Origin: an uncultured Bacteroidales bacterium
Lineage (GTDB): Bacteria; Bacteroidota; Bacteroidia; Bacteroidales; F082
Assembly: GCA_900317155.1 (NCBI GenBank)
Contig: ONFO01000040.1
Span: forward strand, 1 to 36,033
Length of the DNA: 36,033 bases
Reading direction: 5' to 3'
Under the pieces are notes generated by a model that was not told the DNA's origin, did not search any database, and saw only the letters and a program-made list of their open reading frames with translations. Shown here piece after piece: positions 7,635 to 13,093 of the stretch. The position numbers and the translations under genes were made by a program. Each line of letters starts with the position of its first letter. Position 1 is the first letter of the stretch.

Positions 7635-8516
7635 TTAATCGGCGTTATATAAAGTAGGTGAGCCCACATACACTTCAAACGCATGTTCCCTTTTGGCTTT
7701 GTTGTAGAGTGAAGTCTTCATTTTCTCAAGCAAGGCTTGCTTGCGATGGGCAAGGATGACGCTCTTGATGTTGTCGCGTTCCATCTCCAAAGGTGAGGTG
7801 CTTTCTTCAAGAAGGTAGTCGACAAAACGCACAATGTAGGTGAATTCGTTCATCTCGAAACAGACGTACTTGGTTTTCTTTAGGAAACTCTCGGCATTGA
7901 AGATTTCAATGGGGATGAGGCTGGTTAGTTCGTCCAAACGCATCCAATGGTCCACGTCAAGGTAGTTCTTCACGGCATAATAGGTCGCTAGAACGTCGAT
8001 GTTTTGCAGCAGCAATGTGTCAGGGTCACTCAACAGTTTTTGGAAGGTTTCTTTATGAGGGCATCTTTCGTCGAGGATGACGTATGCCGCTTTGACCATC
8101 GTGTTACGGAGTTGGAAGTCCTCTTTATGCTGTTCATAGTAGTCGGCGATTTCATCTTCGCTGACGATGGTGTCCAACTTCTGGTTGATGAGTTGGCTTT
8201 CGTAGGTGTAGATGACAAGCGAGTTCCGGTATTCTTCTATCTGCTTTTGGAAAGCGAGTTCTTCCTTCTCGAGGTTGTTCTCGGCCTGATGGATCAGCAC
8301 CTGTCTCCTAATCCAGGAGTCGATGAATGTGCTGACACTTTGGATGCTGTCCATGATGGAGGTGCCTGCGGGAACTATCCCTACGAGGTCCGACTCATAG
8401 AGATACTTACCATAACACTCAGCCACTACGACTTCTTTCGTTTTTTTCTGAAAGAAGTCGCAGCTGGCCAGTAGCAGTAGGGAAGTGATACCAATAAGAA
8501 CGCCTAACTTGTTCAT
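7635..8516 (-). CDS. SurA-N-like foldase lipoprotein without a parvulin domain
   Basis: A 293-aa lipoprotein (signal peptide with lipobox LASC, Cys19). The mature part is helix-rich and charged; the stretch from about 60-140 (FIDSWIRRQVLIHQAENN and onward, then SEDEIADYYEQHKEDF) resembles the chaperone domain of SurA/PpiD, including the conserved YYEQHKEDF-type segment. I see no recognisable PPIase core: the expected HILI and GFHIIKL motifs are absent. It is therefore probably a chaperone-only relative anchored to a membrane. Its ATG overlaps the stop of the upstream foldase as ATGA. The assignment rests on sequence resemblance and context. Confidence 0.75.
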   Translation of the reverse strand: MNKLGVLIGITSLLLLASCDFFQKKTKEVVVAECYGKYLYESDLVGIVPAGTSIMDSIQSVSTFIDSWIRRQVLIHQAENNLEKEELAFQKQIEEYRNSLVIYTYESQLINQKLDTIVSEDEIADYYEQHKEDFQLRNTMVKAAYVILDERCPHKETFQKLLSDPDTLLLQNIDVLATYYAVKNYLDVDHWMRLDELTSLIPIEIFNAESFLKKTKYVCFEMNEFTYIVRFVDYLLEESTSPLEMERDNIKSVILAHRKQALLEKMKTSLYNKAKREHAFEVYVGSPTLYNAD

Positions 8517-10531
8517 TGATACATCTTTCTGACTTTATCCAGCACTTTCTCGTCGATTTTCACTGGATATTTTTCTTTCAGCGACTTCACCCATTTTTGT
8601 TCGAGTTCCACTTGATAGTCAGAGGTGACAAGGCCTCGGGCTTCTTTGAGGGTCTTAGGTTCGGGCTTGCGCAGTTCATCAATACAAACGATGACGGTGC
8701 TTTGGTCGACGGTAGAGGGAATTTCGTTTCTTACGCCCACCTTCCATTCCGTTTGGTCGACATATTGGTTATCGCCTTTTTGGTAGTAACCCTTACGCAC
8801 AAAGGTGTAGTTGATGGAATCGCGTTGCAAGGTGCTCCTTAAGCTGTCGAGAACAATGCCGCTGTCCAAAAGTGCTTTCACCTTGGGCAAGGATTCTTGA
8901 CGAGTCACTGTGATGATGTATGCATGGGCGCGTTCATCCCACATGTATTTGGAAGCATTGCGTGCATGGAATTCTTGCAGACCCAAAGTGTCTTTCACAG
9001 CCTTGTCCCACACTTCCCGATCCATGAGGTCGAAGAGCAAGATGCCGTCCTTGTATTCTTGGACTAAAGCCTTGAATTCGGGATACTTGTCCTCGAGACG
9101 GGAGTCGGCATAATTCAAGGCCGTTTCTCTGGAGAAGGCATCGTAAAGCTGGTAGGCGTAAGTGGCAGGAGTGACGTATTTTTGCGGTTTCATGTTGCCT
9201 TTGATGTAGTTGACGAAATCGCTCACCTTGGTCGGGTTGCCTTCCATGCTAAACAGGGTGGCGTTCATGTCGACATTGTCGGCAGGCACGTATGCATTTC
9301 GGAGGATGCTGCTGTCGACGGTGGCCATGAAAGCTTCCAGGTTCTTGTCGTTCTGCTTGAACTTGTATTCGCTTTTCACCTGCTTGAGGACCACCTCTTC
9401 CGACTTTTTGGAACGCATGTCTTTCTCGATGCGCTCACTCAAGGCTTTTGACTCTTTTTCAAAAGGTCCGACTCCCGATTTGCCCAACAATTTGATGATA
9501 TGGAAGCCATAGTTGGTACGGATGGGTTTTGCAATCTGTCCAATTTCCAATGACTTGCAGGCTTCAATAAACTCGGGGACGATGCGGCTGACGGTGAAGG
9601 AAGTCAAGGCGCCGTCGCGTTGCACGGTGCCTCTGTCGTCGGAATATTGCTTCACCATCTCACTCCAGTTCTTGCCTTCTTGGGCCATCAGTTCGTTATA
9701 GATGTTGTTGGCCTTTTGTTGTGCTGCTGCCACTTCATCTTCGGGGGCGTCGAAGGGCAGTTGCATGAAGATGTGGGCGGCTTGGATGGAACCCATGGCA
9801 TCGGTTATACTTTGCACCTTAATAATATGGTAGCCGAAATCGCTGCGTACGGGCATGGAGATTTCGCCTTCCTTGGTGTTGTAGGCTCCCGTCTCAAAAG
9901 GATAAACCATGTCAAACACAGTGAAATAGCCGAGGTCGCCACGGTTGCCTGGACGGGCAGGAGCCTGGTCGGTGGCTTCCATGTCTTTCGCTGATGGGTC
10001 TTCCGAATAACGCACAGCGAGGTCGCCAAAGTCTTCACCTTTCAGGGCCTTTTTGCGGATCTCCATGGCTTTGTTGTAGGCTCTCAACGTGTCGGAAGGC
10101 ATGGCATTCTTGTCGCAGCGGATGAGGATGTGGGAGGCGCGAATGTCCTTCAACTTGCGCTGGTAGGCTTCCTGCAACAGCTCTTCAGTGATGTCGTCGC
10201 TGCTCATGAAAGGCTTGGCCAACTGCTTGCGGTAGCCAGCCAGTTCCTTTTGGAATTTCGCGCTGGTGTCCAATTGCAGACTCTCGGCTTCCATCACCTT
10301 CATGCGGAAGGTCGTGAAAAGGTCGAGGTATTCATCAACGGATTTCTTCTCGATGACATCGCTTTTGAGGTTGTTCTTATAGTACACATCGCAGAACTCC
10401 TTCACGGTGATGTCTTGATCGCCAATGGTCATCAATACTTGCTTGTCGAGTTTCGTTTGCGCATTGGCAAATAAGGTTGGCATGATGAATGATACCAACA
10501 CAAACAGTTTCAAAAAGTTAAAATTCTTCAT
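8513..10531 (-). CDS. Periplasmic peptidyl-prolyl isomerase with two parvulin domains (PpiC/SurA-like)
   Basis: A 672-aa exported protein: signal peptide (ending FANAQ, about residue 25), N-terminal SurA-like helical domain (about 28-130), parvulin 1 (about 133-243, starting ASHILIRCD, ending GYHIIKV), parvulin 2 (about 250-352, starting AAHIFMQLP, ending GFHIIKLLG), then a long helical C-terminal region of about 320 residues. The layout is typical of Bacteroidetes foldases used for outer-membrane protein assembly. It is the largest gene of the chaperone operon, 49 bases after the small gene at 10581-10988 and coupled to the lipoprotein by a 4-base overlap. Confidence 0.9.
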   Translation of the reverse strand: MKNFNFLKLFVLVSFIMPTLFANAQTKLDKQVLMTIGDQDITVKEFCDVYYKNNLKSDVIEKKSVDEYLDLFTTFRMKVMEAESLQLDTSAKFQKELAGYRKQLAKPFMSSDDITEELLQEAYQRKLKDIRASHILIRCDKNAMPSDTLRAYNKAMEIRKKALKGEDFGDLAVRYSEDPSAKDMEATDQAPARPGNRGDLGYFTVFDMVYPFETGAYNTKEGEISMPVRSDFGYHIIKVQSITDAMGSIQAAHIFMQLPFDAPEDEVAAAQQKANNIYNELMAQEGKNWSEMVKQYSDDRGTVQRDGALTSFTVSRIVPEFIEACKSLEIGQIAKPIRTNYGFHIIKLLGKSGVGPFEKESKALSERIEKDMRSKKSEEVVLKQVKSEYKFKQNDKNLEAFMATVDSSILRNAYVPADNVDMNATLFSMEGNPTKVSDFVNYIKGNMKPQKYVTPATYAYQLYDAFSRETALNYADSRLEDKYPEFKALVQEYKDGILLFDLMDREVWDKAVKDTLGLQEFHARNASKYMWDERAHAYIITVTRQESLPKVKALLDSGIVLDSLRSTLQRDSINYTFVRKGYYQKGDNQYVDQTEWKVGVRNEIPSTVDQSTVIVCIDELRKPEPKTLKEARGLVTSDYQVELEQKWVKSLKEKYPVKIDEKVLDKVRKMYQ

Positions 10532-10580: not shown

Positions 10581-10988
10581 TTATTTCAATCCGCCCTCCA
10601 CTTCCAAACCGTTGTCGAGGACATGGACGTCGTCGACTTGAATGGCATCGAAAACGGTCTTCACCTGTTCGATTTGGCCGAGATGGAGCAACAGCTGTCG
10701 GTCGGGACGCTTCTCAATCAGGCCTTCTGGAAGCTTGTTATGGAGCAGACTGAGCACGGTGCTCATCAAAGTATCGGTGCCCATGCCGGCATCCAACTTG
10801 ACGAGCAGGTCGCTGCCTACCATCTCAAGGATAGAGAGATTGGCAGATATGTCCTTCTTCATAAAGCCTAAGTTGATGGGGTAGGTGACCTTCACGGTCT
10901 TGTCGTCGACGAAGGCAAGTCCGATGTTTTGTTCGGTTTTTTCTTGCAGAATGGACTGCAATTCAGGGAAAGAAATGGAGGCTTTCAT
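10581..10988 (-). CDS. Small cytoplasmic protein of unknown function
   Basis: A 135-aa protein that I do not recognise. It has no signal peptide or membrane segment. It looks alpha/beta with alternating hydrophobic stretches (TVKVTYPINLGFMKKDISANLS near 32-53) and ends with a beta-like VDDVHVLDNGLEVEGGLK. It is the first gene of the foldase operon, 49 bases ahead of the PpiC gene. No promoter is visible in the 22 bases before it; the upstream DNA is the end of an inverted-repeat-bounded cassette, so transcription probably comes from guaB or from inside the cassette. Confidence 0.7.
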   Translation of the reverse strand: MKASISFPELQSILQEKTEQNIGLAFVDDKTVKVTYPINLGFMKKDISANLSILEMVGSDLLVKLDAGMGTDTLMSTVLSLLHNKLPEGLIEKRPDRQLLLHLGQIEQVKTVFDAIQVDDVHVLDNGLEVEGGLK

Positions 10989-11010
10989 TTTTGTTTATTT
11001 TCTTGTTTTT

Positions 11011-11578
11011 ACACGAATTATCACTAATGTATCACGAATTTTCATTAATTGTTTTTTCTTCGTCTTCCTCGATGTCCCAGCTTGGGTATTCAGGGTAGAG
11101 AAGGTTCATGTCTTTGTCAAGTAAAACACATTCGTTTGTCTCTTCTATATATGCATAACGTTCACTTTGTAAACTCGGTTGCCCAAAGTTAATAAGCAAT
11201 CCTATAGGTTTTTTAGTCAGCCGCATATAATTAAATAGTTGTGCACGATGAGCGGGAAGCAGTTCTTTTACAGATTTAAGTTCAACAATAATTTCATCTT
11301 CAACTACGACATCCATCTTGTAAAACTTTTCCATCTGGATGCCCTTGTAAAAGCAAGGAAGTAGTTTTTCTGACTCACAAGCAATTCCTTTTTCTGCCAA
11401 TTCCAAAATAAGAGCCTCGTTATACACAGGTTCCAACAGACCCCAGTTCAACACCCTGTGAACCGTCATTGCCGAGCCTATAATTTTGTAAACAAGTTCC
11501 TTATATCTTTTGAAATTTAACATAGAATACGAGAATGAAATTAATGTCAATTCGTGTTCAATTCATGGAAATTCGTGT
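11011..11578. mobile_element. Inverted-repeat-bounded GxxExxY cassette
   Basis: Two 40-base sequences, 11011-11050 and the complement of 11539-11578, match at 31 of 40 positions. Each contains ACACGAATT at its outer end, a second CACGAATT about 20 bases inward and ATTAATT at its inner end. They frame one gene, the GxxExxY protein, whose stop codon falls inside one repeat. No transposase is present. The unit is visibly richer in A+T than guaB. Calling it mobile is an inference from the repeats and the position. Confidence 0.55.
11032..11523 (-). CDS. GxxExxY protein (PD-(D/E)XK nuclease-like, PDDEXK_3)
   Basis: A 163-aa protein if started at the ATG at 11523; an upstream ATG at 11550 lies in the flanking repeat and adds nine unlikely residues. 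The name-giving motif is seen as WGLLEPVYNEAL, and a PD-(D/E)XK-like core as KMDVVVEDEIIVELKSV (Asp, then Glu-Leu-Lys). The C-terminus is acidic (DIEEDEEKTINENS) and runs into the left repeat, so this end may be repeat-derived. The family is widespread in Bacteroidetes, often in several copies per genome, and is of unknown function; nuclease activity is only predicted. It sits between guaB and the foldase operon on the same strand. Confidence 0.88.
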   Translation of the reverse strand: MLNFKRYKELVYKIIGSAMTVHRVLNWGLLEPVYNEALILELAEKGIACESEKLLPCFYKGIQMEKFYKMDVVVEDEIIVELKSVKELLPAHRAQLFNYMRLTKKPIGLLINFGQPSLQSERYAYIEETNECVLLDKDMNLLYPEYPSWDIEEDEEKTINENS

Positions 11579-11584
11579 TTAAAA

Positions 11585-13093
<1,509 letters not shown>

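Follow-up and report, generated by a model that had tools for sequence, protein, structure and literature searches.

Comparison of related genomes makes a well-supported case that the GxxExxY gene next to guaB in the window, i.e., the whole 36,033-nt stretch of Bacteroidales DNA analyzed here, belongs to a mobile element framed by inverted arms of repeated words, and this cassette is probably selfish. The whole inserted element covers 596 nt on the minus strand (10989-11584), from the guaB stop codon to the ATG of a gene for a 135-aa protein, with putative outer edges. The upstream arm, in the sense of transcription (11539-11578, minus strand), contains two CACGAATT words at a distance of 21 nt, separated by a CATGAATT word, and the downstream arm (11011-11050, plus strand) is its inverted copy, again with two CACGAATT words. 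The exact pairs at this spacing occupy 11012-11040 on the plus strand and 11549-11577 on the minus strand, and a third, degenerate word lies between both CACGAATT words of each arm. The GxxExxY gene (PDDEXK_3; 163 aa; 11032-11523, minus strand) starts at a likely ATG at 11523, just inside one arm, and its TGA stop codon, at 11032-11034, is inside the other, as the sequence-only reading had noticed; an alternative, TTG-started reading of this ORF extends to 11550. On the minus strand, the gene order is guaB, encoding IMP dehydrogenase (11585-13048; PF00478, E 9.5e-165), GxxExxY, the 135-aa gene (10581-10988; no Pfam match), and a PpiC-type foldase gene (8513-10531; PF13616, E 1.8e-41). The cassette had been placed between guaB and a foldase operon; guaB does adjoin it, but its other neighbor is the 135-aa gene and not the foldase. 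An AAA+ ATPase gene (PF01637, 13261-14382) is found upstream of guaB on the same strand.

When 11011-11050 was compared with the reverse complement of 11539-11578, 31 of 40 positions were identical, exactly the count reported earlier, with two word copies in each repeat. Dinucleotide-shuffled flanks gave 26/40 at best, and 31/40 was reached in 0 of 100 shuffles; similarly, none of 1000 shuffles had a gapped inverted-repeat score as high as that of the window. The similarity between the arms extends to about 60 nt at 70%, and, by eye and unscored, the window arm looks like a series of tandem words rather than a palindrome. A simple consensus scan of 10900-11750 detected no terminator-like site on the minus strand, in agreement with the earlier statement that no terminator separates the genes, and one such site on the plus strand, with 0.6 expected.

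The guaB junction was then analyzed in congeners. Thirty-four of 60 carried the 135-aa gene, and 30 loci were read: guaB adjoined the gene in 23 and was not within reach in the other 7. A gap of 2-23 nt, stop codon included, separated both genes in 19 of these 23 congeneric loci, and the junction was filled in two, the window included. The sequence-only reading had named clean junctions as a sign of mobility, and these are what most loci contained; the opposite arrangement, the gene and its repeats at guaB in all relatives, was not found. In the window's genome the gap measures 599 nt, stop codon included, and that of G002 spans 358 nt, where the same words flank a GxxExxY gene disrupted by a deletion, i.e., a decayed copy. 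The gap at one more junction (L063) is short and odd; in G028 (L064), 131 nt separate the genes and include a hairpin with no gene, made of inverted GACTATG/GACCATG-type words of the S23 class. The element in the window is an insertion that begins immediately 3' of the guaB stop codon. It is close to negligible that the arms are an untranslated-region structure inherited vertically with guaB, or a chance inverted repeat: a second species, G002, does have the decayed copy at the same place, but the empty guaB sites, including that of G024, the locus with the most similar 135-aa protein among those read (89%), rule out the former, and the shuffles exclude the latter. No words were seen around the empty junctions in the short stretches inspected.

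Further copies of the gene were also found. The 3.8-Mb genome of the window has three more, each with its own repeat words, and one of them (L003) has stop codons where the match continues beyond the end of the ORF. The family was present in 58 of 100 relatives; genomes of the genus carried between 0 and 7 copies, and one genome of the order carried 12. This patchy presence among related species, together with the repeats around most of the copies examined, points to a selfish DNA element of a little-known type. One copy of G000 (L004, contig C32) lies between direct repeats of ~190 bp, each partly palindromic.

A second junction provided a closer view of the movement. It is flanked by genes that we take to encode mevalonate decarboxylase (MVD) and a GHMP kinase, and in 14 of 30 loci it was empty, with the flanking genes overlapping by ATGA; 10 loci contained a GxxExxY element, 1 more had it at a contig edge, and 5 were other arrangements. 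Between G000 and G133, the dS of GxxExxY was 0.04, and that of the flanking genes 1.26 and 0.83; likewise, G021 showed 0.05 for GxxExxY versus 1.01 and 0.94 for the flanks. Since the element dS is 0.04 and the flanking-gene dS 0.83-1.26, the near-identical elements of these species indicate recent transfer into the same site. The identity of G000 and G133 is 77-87% up to the MVD stop codon, jumps exactly there to 100%, remains at 90-100% across the two arms, and drops ~60-90 nt inside the kinase gene. Between G000 and G021 the arms were less similar than the gene, and in seven other pairs the tract edges were mostly less sharp, several of them with raised identity for ~60-120 nt past the arms. 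Among 190 same-site pairs, which are not independent and whose counts are slightly inflated by doubles (the young pair L039/L132 repeats L037/L039), the element was far younger than both flanks in 9 and far older in 22. The far older elements are best read as replaced by another lineage. Replacement at a shared site may also reflect no more than homologous recombination of the ordinary kind between species. By sequence comparison, the element is inserted directly after a stop codon between co-directional genes at both closely studied junctions, and at one and the same site species have acquired it, lost it, and passed it to one another; no target-site duplication was recognized by eye at either the guaB or the MVD junction. 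In three other loci of the MVD-kinase junction (L322, L330, and L336), an antisense YafQ-type toxin gene and a small partner gene were found with no inverted ends, the YafQ-type assignment being tested for L322 and the other two looking alike by eye.

Similar proteins were also found at different sites. Among 270 protein pairs with at least 70% identity, 62 had no common flanking ORF, a figure in which some pairs are possibly contig-end artefacts (L202 and L105 are near ends) and doubles inflate the count slightly. As an example, three copies from three genomes, with 86-88% identity and one word, have no flanking ORF in common.

The arms are a feature of the family. From a pattern-based scan that gave at least 580 confirmed matches, the best 80 on named contigs were taken, and one was dropped for its short flanks; arms were scored as an inverted match between the flanks with a score of 26 or more. 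By this measure, inverted arms were present in 68 of 79 GxxExxY loci from 13 named phyla (from the best 80 of 580), and in 1/79 shuffled flanks, 13/126 other ORFs from those loci, and 12% of 2000 mismatched flank pairs. Bacteroidota accounted for 41 of 51 and the rest for 27 of 28, one of these unassigned. Similar results were obtained with further genus and order loci (51/58, from 60 hand-picked from known places with 2 dropped) and with the first set (27/33); the control genes showed arms in 0/30 loci for the 135-aa gene and 3/30 for the kinase. Three records are double in both collections (L148/L020, L106/L021, and L132/L037), and without doubles the count is 65/76. Of the 11 loci below the threshold, 6 had direct repeats and 5 had neither. 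This DNA architecture shared across phyla makes GxxExxY a testable mobile-element enzyme. No match was found in 50,697 phage records, and 8 plasmid records matched, all under 60% identity; Rfam at the gathering threshold gave no match for 9 loci. Cross-phylum transfer is not claimed from the protein tree, which is poorly resolved and has 21 label changes versus a minimum of 12.

Within the arms, repetition at a lag of 9 nt was 0.41 versus 0.28 in shuffled sequence, and the best lag was 8-10 nt in 56 of 68 loci. The word is usually identical in both arms of one locus and different between loci (CACGAATT, CACAGAG, CACGGAG, CACAGATT, and CGCAAAGG, among others), and its CAC faces inward in 51 of the 68, with 14 ties and 3 opposite. 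Word similarity tracks protein similarity (Mantel r 0.20, 0/999 permutations), a signal that may partly reflect shared descent. At a site common to 19 loci (16 without doubles), the word shifts among CGAATT, CAGATT, and CGGATT, usually with both arms changing at once and with few mixed arms; the accompanying comparison of pairs (147/193) is biased, as the arms were chosen by arm-arm score, and its pair counts are slightly inflated. The proposal that the repeats could be recognition ends for the encoded protein fits the data, because arms are present in 68/79 loci, the words track protein similarity, and the window's word pattern and GxxExxY co-occur among genomes, and we infer that the protein may recognize them. 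If it does read the words, the family would be a natural source of many enzyme-word pairs in which shifts of DNA specificity could be studied.

To look for the repeat ends elsewhere, CACGAATT pairs at the spacing of the window were searched in 99 genomes of the genus. They were detected in 36 genomes, with up to 27 matches, and the reversed control pattern gave none. Thirty-three of these loci were read: 12 were gene-less hairpins of 58-125 bp, 17 had one arm only, and the rest were L306 (433 bp, without GxxExxY), the two ends of the window element, and the guaB copy of G002. GxxExxY was found in just three, i.e., the window's two ends and the G002 copy, and hence the ends recur elsewhere without the gene in the search that the sequence-only reading had proposed. 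The word pairs occurred in 17 of 40 genomes with GxxExxY versus 1 of 20 without it (Fisher p 0.0026), where the GxxExxY counts include weak matches down to E 0.001. The number of CACGAATT pairs per genome increases with genome size, and the size-corrected partial rho was 0.37 for GxxExxY and 0.08 for S23. One GxxExxY element of G051 has its arms and inner hairpin in common with an element 7 kb away that lacks the gene. An unbiased scan of 800 kb of this genome, run with no shuffled control, produced 22 candidates, several of which look like chance, and recovered one of the three GxxExxY copies in the stretch; the other two have arms by eye. GxxExxY elements are the likely origin of some dispersed CACGAAT-type hairpins. 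The pattern MCACRRATTNCACRRATT was rejected as a genome-wide element counter for being too narrow (15 matches in G071 and 0-1 in 11 other genomes). Two loci of the window's genome (L007 and L008) have single CACGAATT arms with a common longer dispersed upstream repeat, ACCC..CAAGGGGA..GG..AAATTCTATT, and arrays of CACGAATT pairs repeated in tandem were also observed, spaced by 49-50 nt and by 151 nt (G104:C31:44296-44522; G055:C94:5365-5695).

The protein itself was next considered. It matched PF13366 (E 3.8e-38, 130.9 bits, cut-off 22), the sole match in the Pfam search, and TIGR04256 GxxExxY (E 1.9e-41, 141.1 bits, cut-off 35). In an alignment of 20 family members, G28, E31, Y34, D71, E81, and K83 were invariant; the codons of D71, E81, and K83, the predicted catalytic core, are at 11275-11313 on the minus strand, and those of Q95 to Y99, a QxxxY motif invariant in the same 20 sequences, at 11227-11241 on the same strand. 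The AlphaFold2 model had a pLDDT of 90.3, and Foldseek placed Cas4 (modest, E 4.7e-4, TM 0.44) and lambda exonuclease among the best fold matches, with other PD-(D/E)XK folds scoring close behind. A sequence search for relatives with solved structures was not convincing (best E 0.57). The model suggests that GxxExxY is a small RecB/Cas4/lambda-exonuclease-type PD-(D/E)XK nuclease that keeps a Cas4/lambda-exonuclease-like active site with a putative catalytic role. The sequence-only reading had taken the cassette for non-autonomous, a label with no support in either direction: because the conserved catalytic residues of the family are present, it may instead be autonomous, and the hairpins without a gene would then be the non-autonomous members. 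Excerpts of PMC8934634 report a gene annotated as GxxExxY for which a second tool proposed cas4, and the name also occurs in PMC12085832. Our literature search, with most subscription papers outside its scope, found no paper on the function of GxxExxY, and none, in the same scope, on PDDEXK_3 or the arm-word string.

A related arrangement was observed with a different protein. Genes for the four-helix-bundle S23 protein (TIGR02436; L213-L242) are between inverted arms in 28 of 30 loci, and these arms have a clear 7-nt word period; up to 14 copies per genome were found among the 100 relatives. In this parallel, the S23 elements appear as a sister class of the GxxExxY elements. According to excerpts of PMC4990558, the 23S rRNA intervening sequence of Coxiella has tandem heptamers beside an S23 ORF, RNase III cuts the RNA, and the role of S23 elements is little known.

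We give about an even chance to the reading that the cassette is a mobile, homing-like element, a nuclease gene in a hairpin, whose encoded nuclease drives movement through its words. In such a process, the GxxExxY protein would bind the repeated words on both arms, roughly one per helical turn, and would cut or nick the element or the target DNA. Repair would then write a copy of the element into the corresponding junction of a second chromosome, together with a short tract of co-conversion, and the gene-less hairpins would be mobilized or maintained in trans, in the way proposed for REPs and RAYTs.

The orientation of the gene bears on a rival explanation, in which the element acts at the RNA level, in the manner of the 23S rRNA intervening sequences: the arms would fold in the transcript into a stem cleavable by RNase III, the insert would be tolerated only in the sense orientation between genes, the protein would act on RNA or be a passenger, and movement would occur by another route. 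We consider this unlikely, yet worth keeping in view. GxxExxY reads with its upstream neighbor in 69 of 72 loci (8 of 80 were dropped at contig edges) versus a baseline of 117/147 (p 9e-5), and in 28/30 loci of another set; for S23, the count was 29/30. Selection, a need for read-through, or tolerance at the RNA level, as in the 23S intervening sequences, could each produce such a bias. The arms paired in the RNA minimum-energy fold in all 29 loci tested, from the first 40 of the 80, but any inverted repeat gives sense pairing in a fold. The likeness of the period-7 S23 sister elements to the Coxiella intervening sequence cut by RNase III, as excerpted from PMC4990558, also speaks for the RNA level. 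On the other hand, the arm mismatches had no sense-strand G-U bias (70 sense-wobble versus 86 antisense-wobble types), and the protein fold is known mostly from DNA nucleases. In addition, the words seem by eye to be better kept than the spacers between them, suggesting word recognition over pairing alone.

Improbable, in our estimate, is a host-useful gene, e.g., a Cas4-like repair or defense nuclease, that is swapped by ordinary homologous recombination, with the arms being independent REP-like repeats that gather at the same intercistronic junctions. GxxExxY at the MVD-kinase junction had a median omega of 0.033, which indicates strong purifying selection, equally expected of a host-useful gene; the profiles of a defense library gave weak Cas4 matches to GxxExxY (E 8e-4), and the MVD junction hosts other inserts, such as the YafQ-type toxin gene and its small neighbor. 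Against this, each locus has one word in both arms, different between loci, the arms go along with the copies at different sites, and other genes are mostly without such arms. The patchy presence of the gene among relatives and its varying copy number within the genus also argue against a host function.

The mobile, homing-like element can be compared with several known systems. Excerpts of PMC2817692 describe for REP/RAYT units gene-less cognate repeats that are correlated with the gene, and repeats and protein that track each other. Like these, the element has a gene for a DNA-cutting enzyme (here predicted) flanked by two inverted repeats, and cognate gene-less repeats tied to gene presence; unlike them, the enzyme is of the PD-(D/E)XK, Cas4-like type and not an HUH tyrosine transposase, the arms are tandem ~9-nt words that vary between loci, and same-site exchange between species was seen. 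At the MVD-kinase junction, it shares with the homing endonuclease elements a small, predicted nuclease gene that spreads between lineages into one conserved site, and a co-conversion-like tract with an element far younger than its flanks. It differs from these elements (inteins, group I introns, and free-standing ones) in being intercistronic, with no sign of self-splicing, and in having word arms and gene-less relatives. In its working it resembles both a RAYT/REP unit and a homing element, and by the features compared here it belongs to neither. As in the 23S rRNA intervening sequences, a short ORF is in a hairpin loop formed by terminal inverted repeats, and the S23 sister class has period-7 arms comparable to the Coxiella heptamers; the window element, in contrast, is between protein genes, encodes an unrelated protein (PF13366), and belongs to a family with a period of 9. 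Terminal inverted repeats and many dispersed, gene-less hairpins of 58-125 bp with common ends resemble MITEs, but the coding copy is without a transposase of a known family, no target-site duplication was recognized, and the ends are tandem words. Finally, the TAACTGA heptamers of Beggiatoaceae are abundant intergenic tandem repeats in several bacterial groups, and, unlike the arms, direct repeats with a possible regulatory role; the excerpted main text on them has no mention of S23 (PMC4679880).

A broader reading, which we put forward tentatively and hold to be possible rather than probable, is that GxxExxY, S23, and perhaps GIY-YIG are coding members of one unrecognized super-class of mobile hairpins, spread over many phyla. 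Its members would have a period fixed by family (~9 nt for GxxExxY and 7 nt for S23), a lineage-private word rewritten jointly in all the repeats of both arms, coevolution of protein and word, and nuclease-driven homing into intercistronic junctions. If true, a naturally diversified family of small DNA-specific nucleases would be hidden among the 'hypothetical proteins'. The GIY-YIG loci are a possible third class: in L347-L371, 20 of 26 had inverted matches and 17 of 26 direct ones (4 of 30 were dropped), in a different architecture. Both the S23 and the GIY-YIG loci analyzed were the best-scoring ones, mostly from one genus and with orthologues included. The GIY-YIG copy of G051 (L342, G051:C1:494562-494974) was below the arm threshold, and the small GIY-YIG nuclease genes were often found within dispersed palindromic repeats of the GAATGGAG and GTCATTGCGAGG types.
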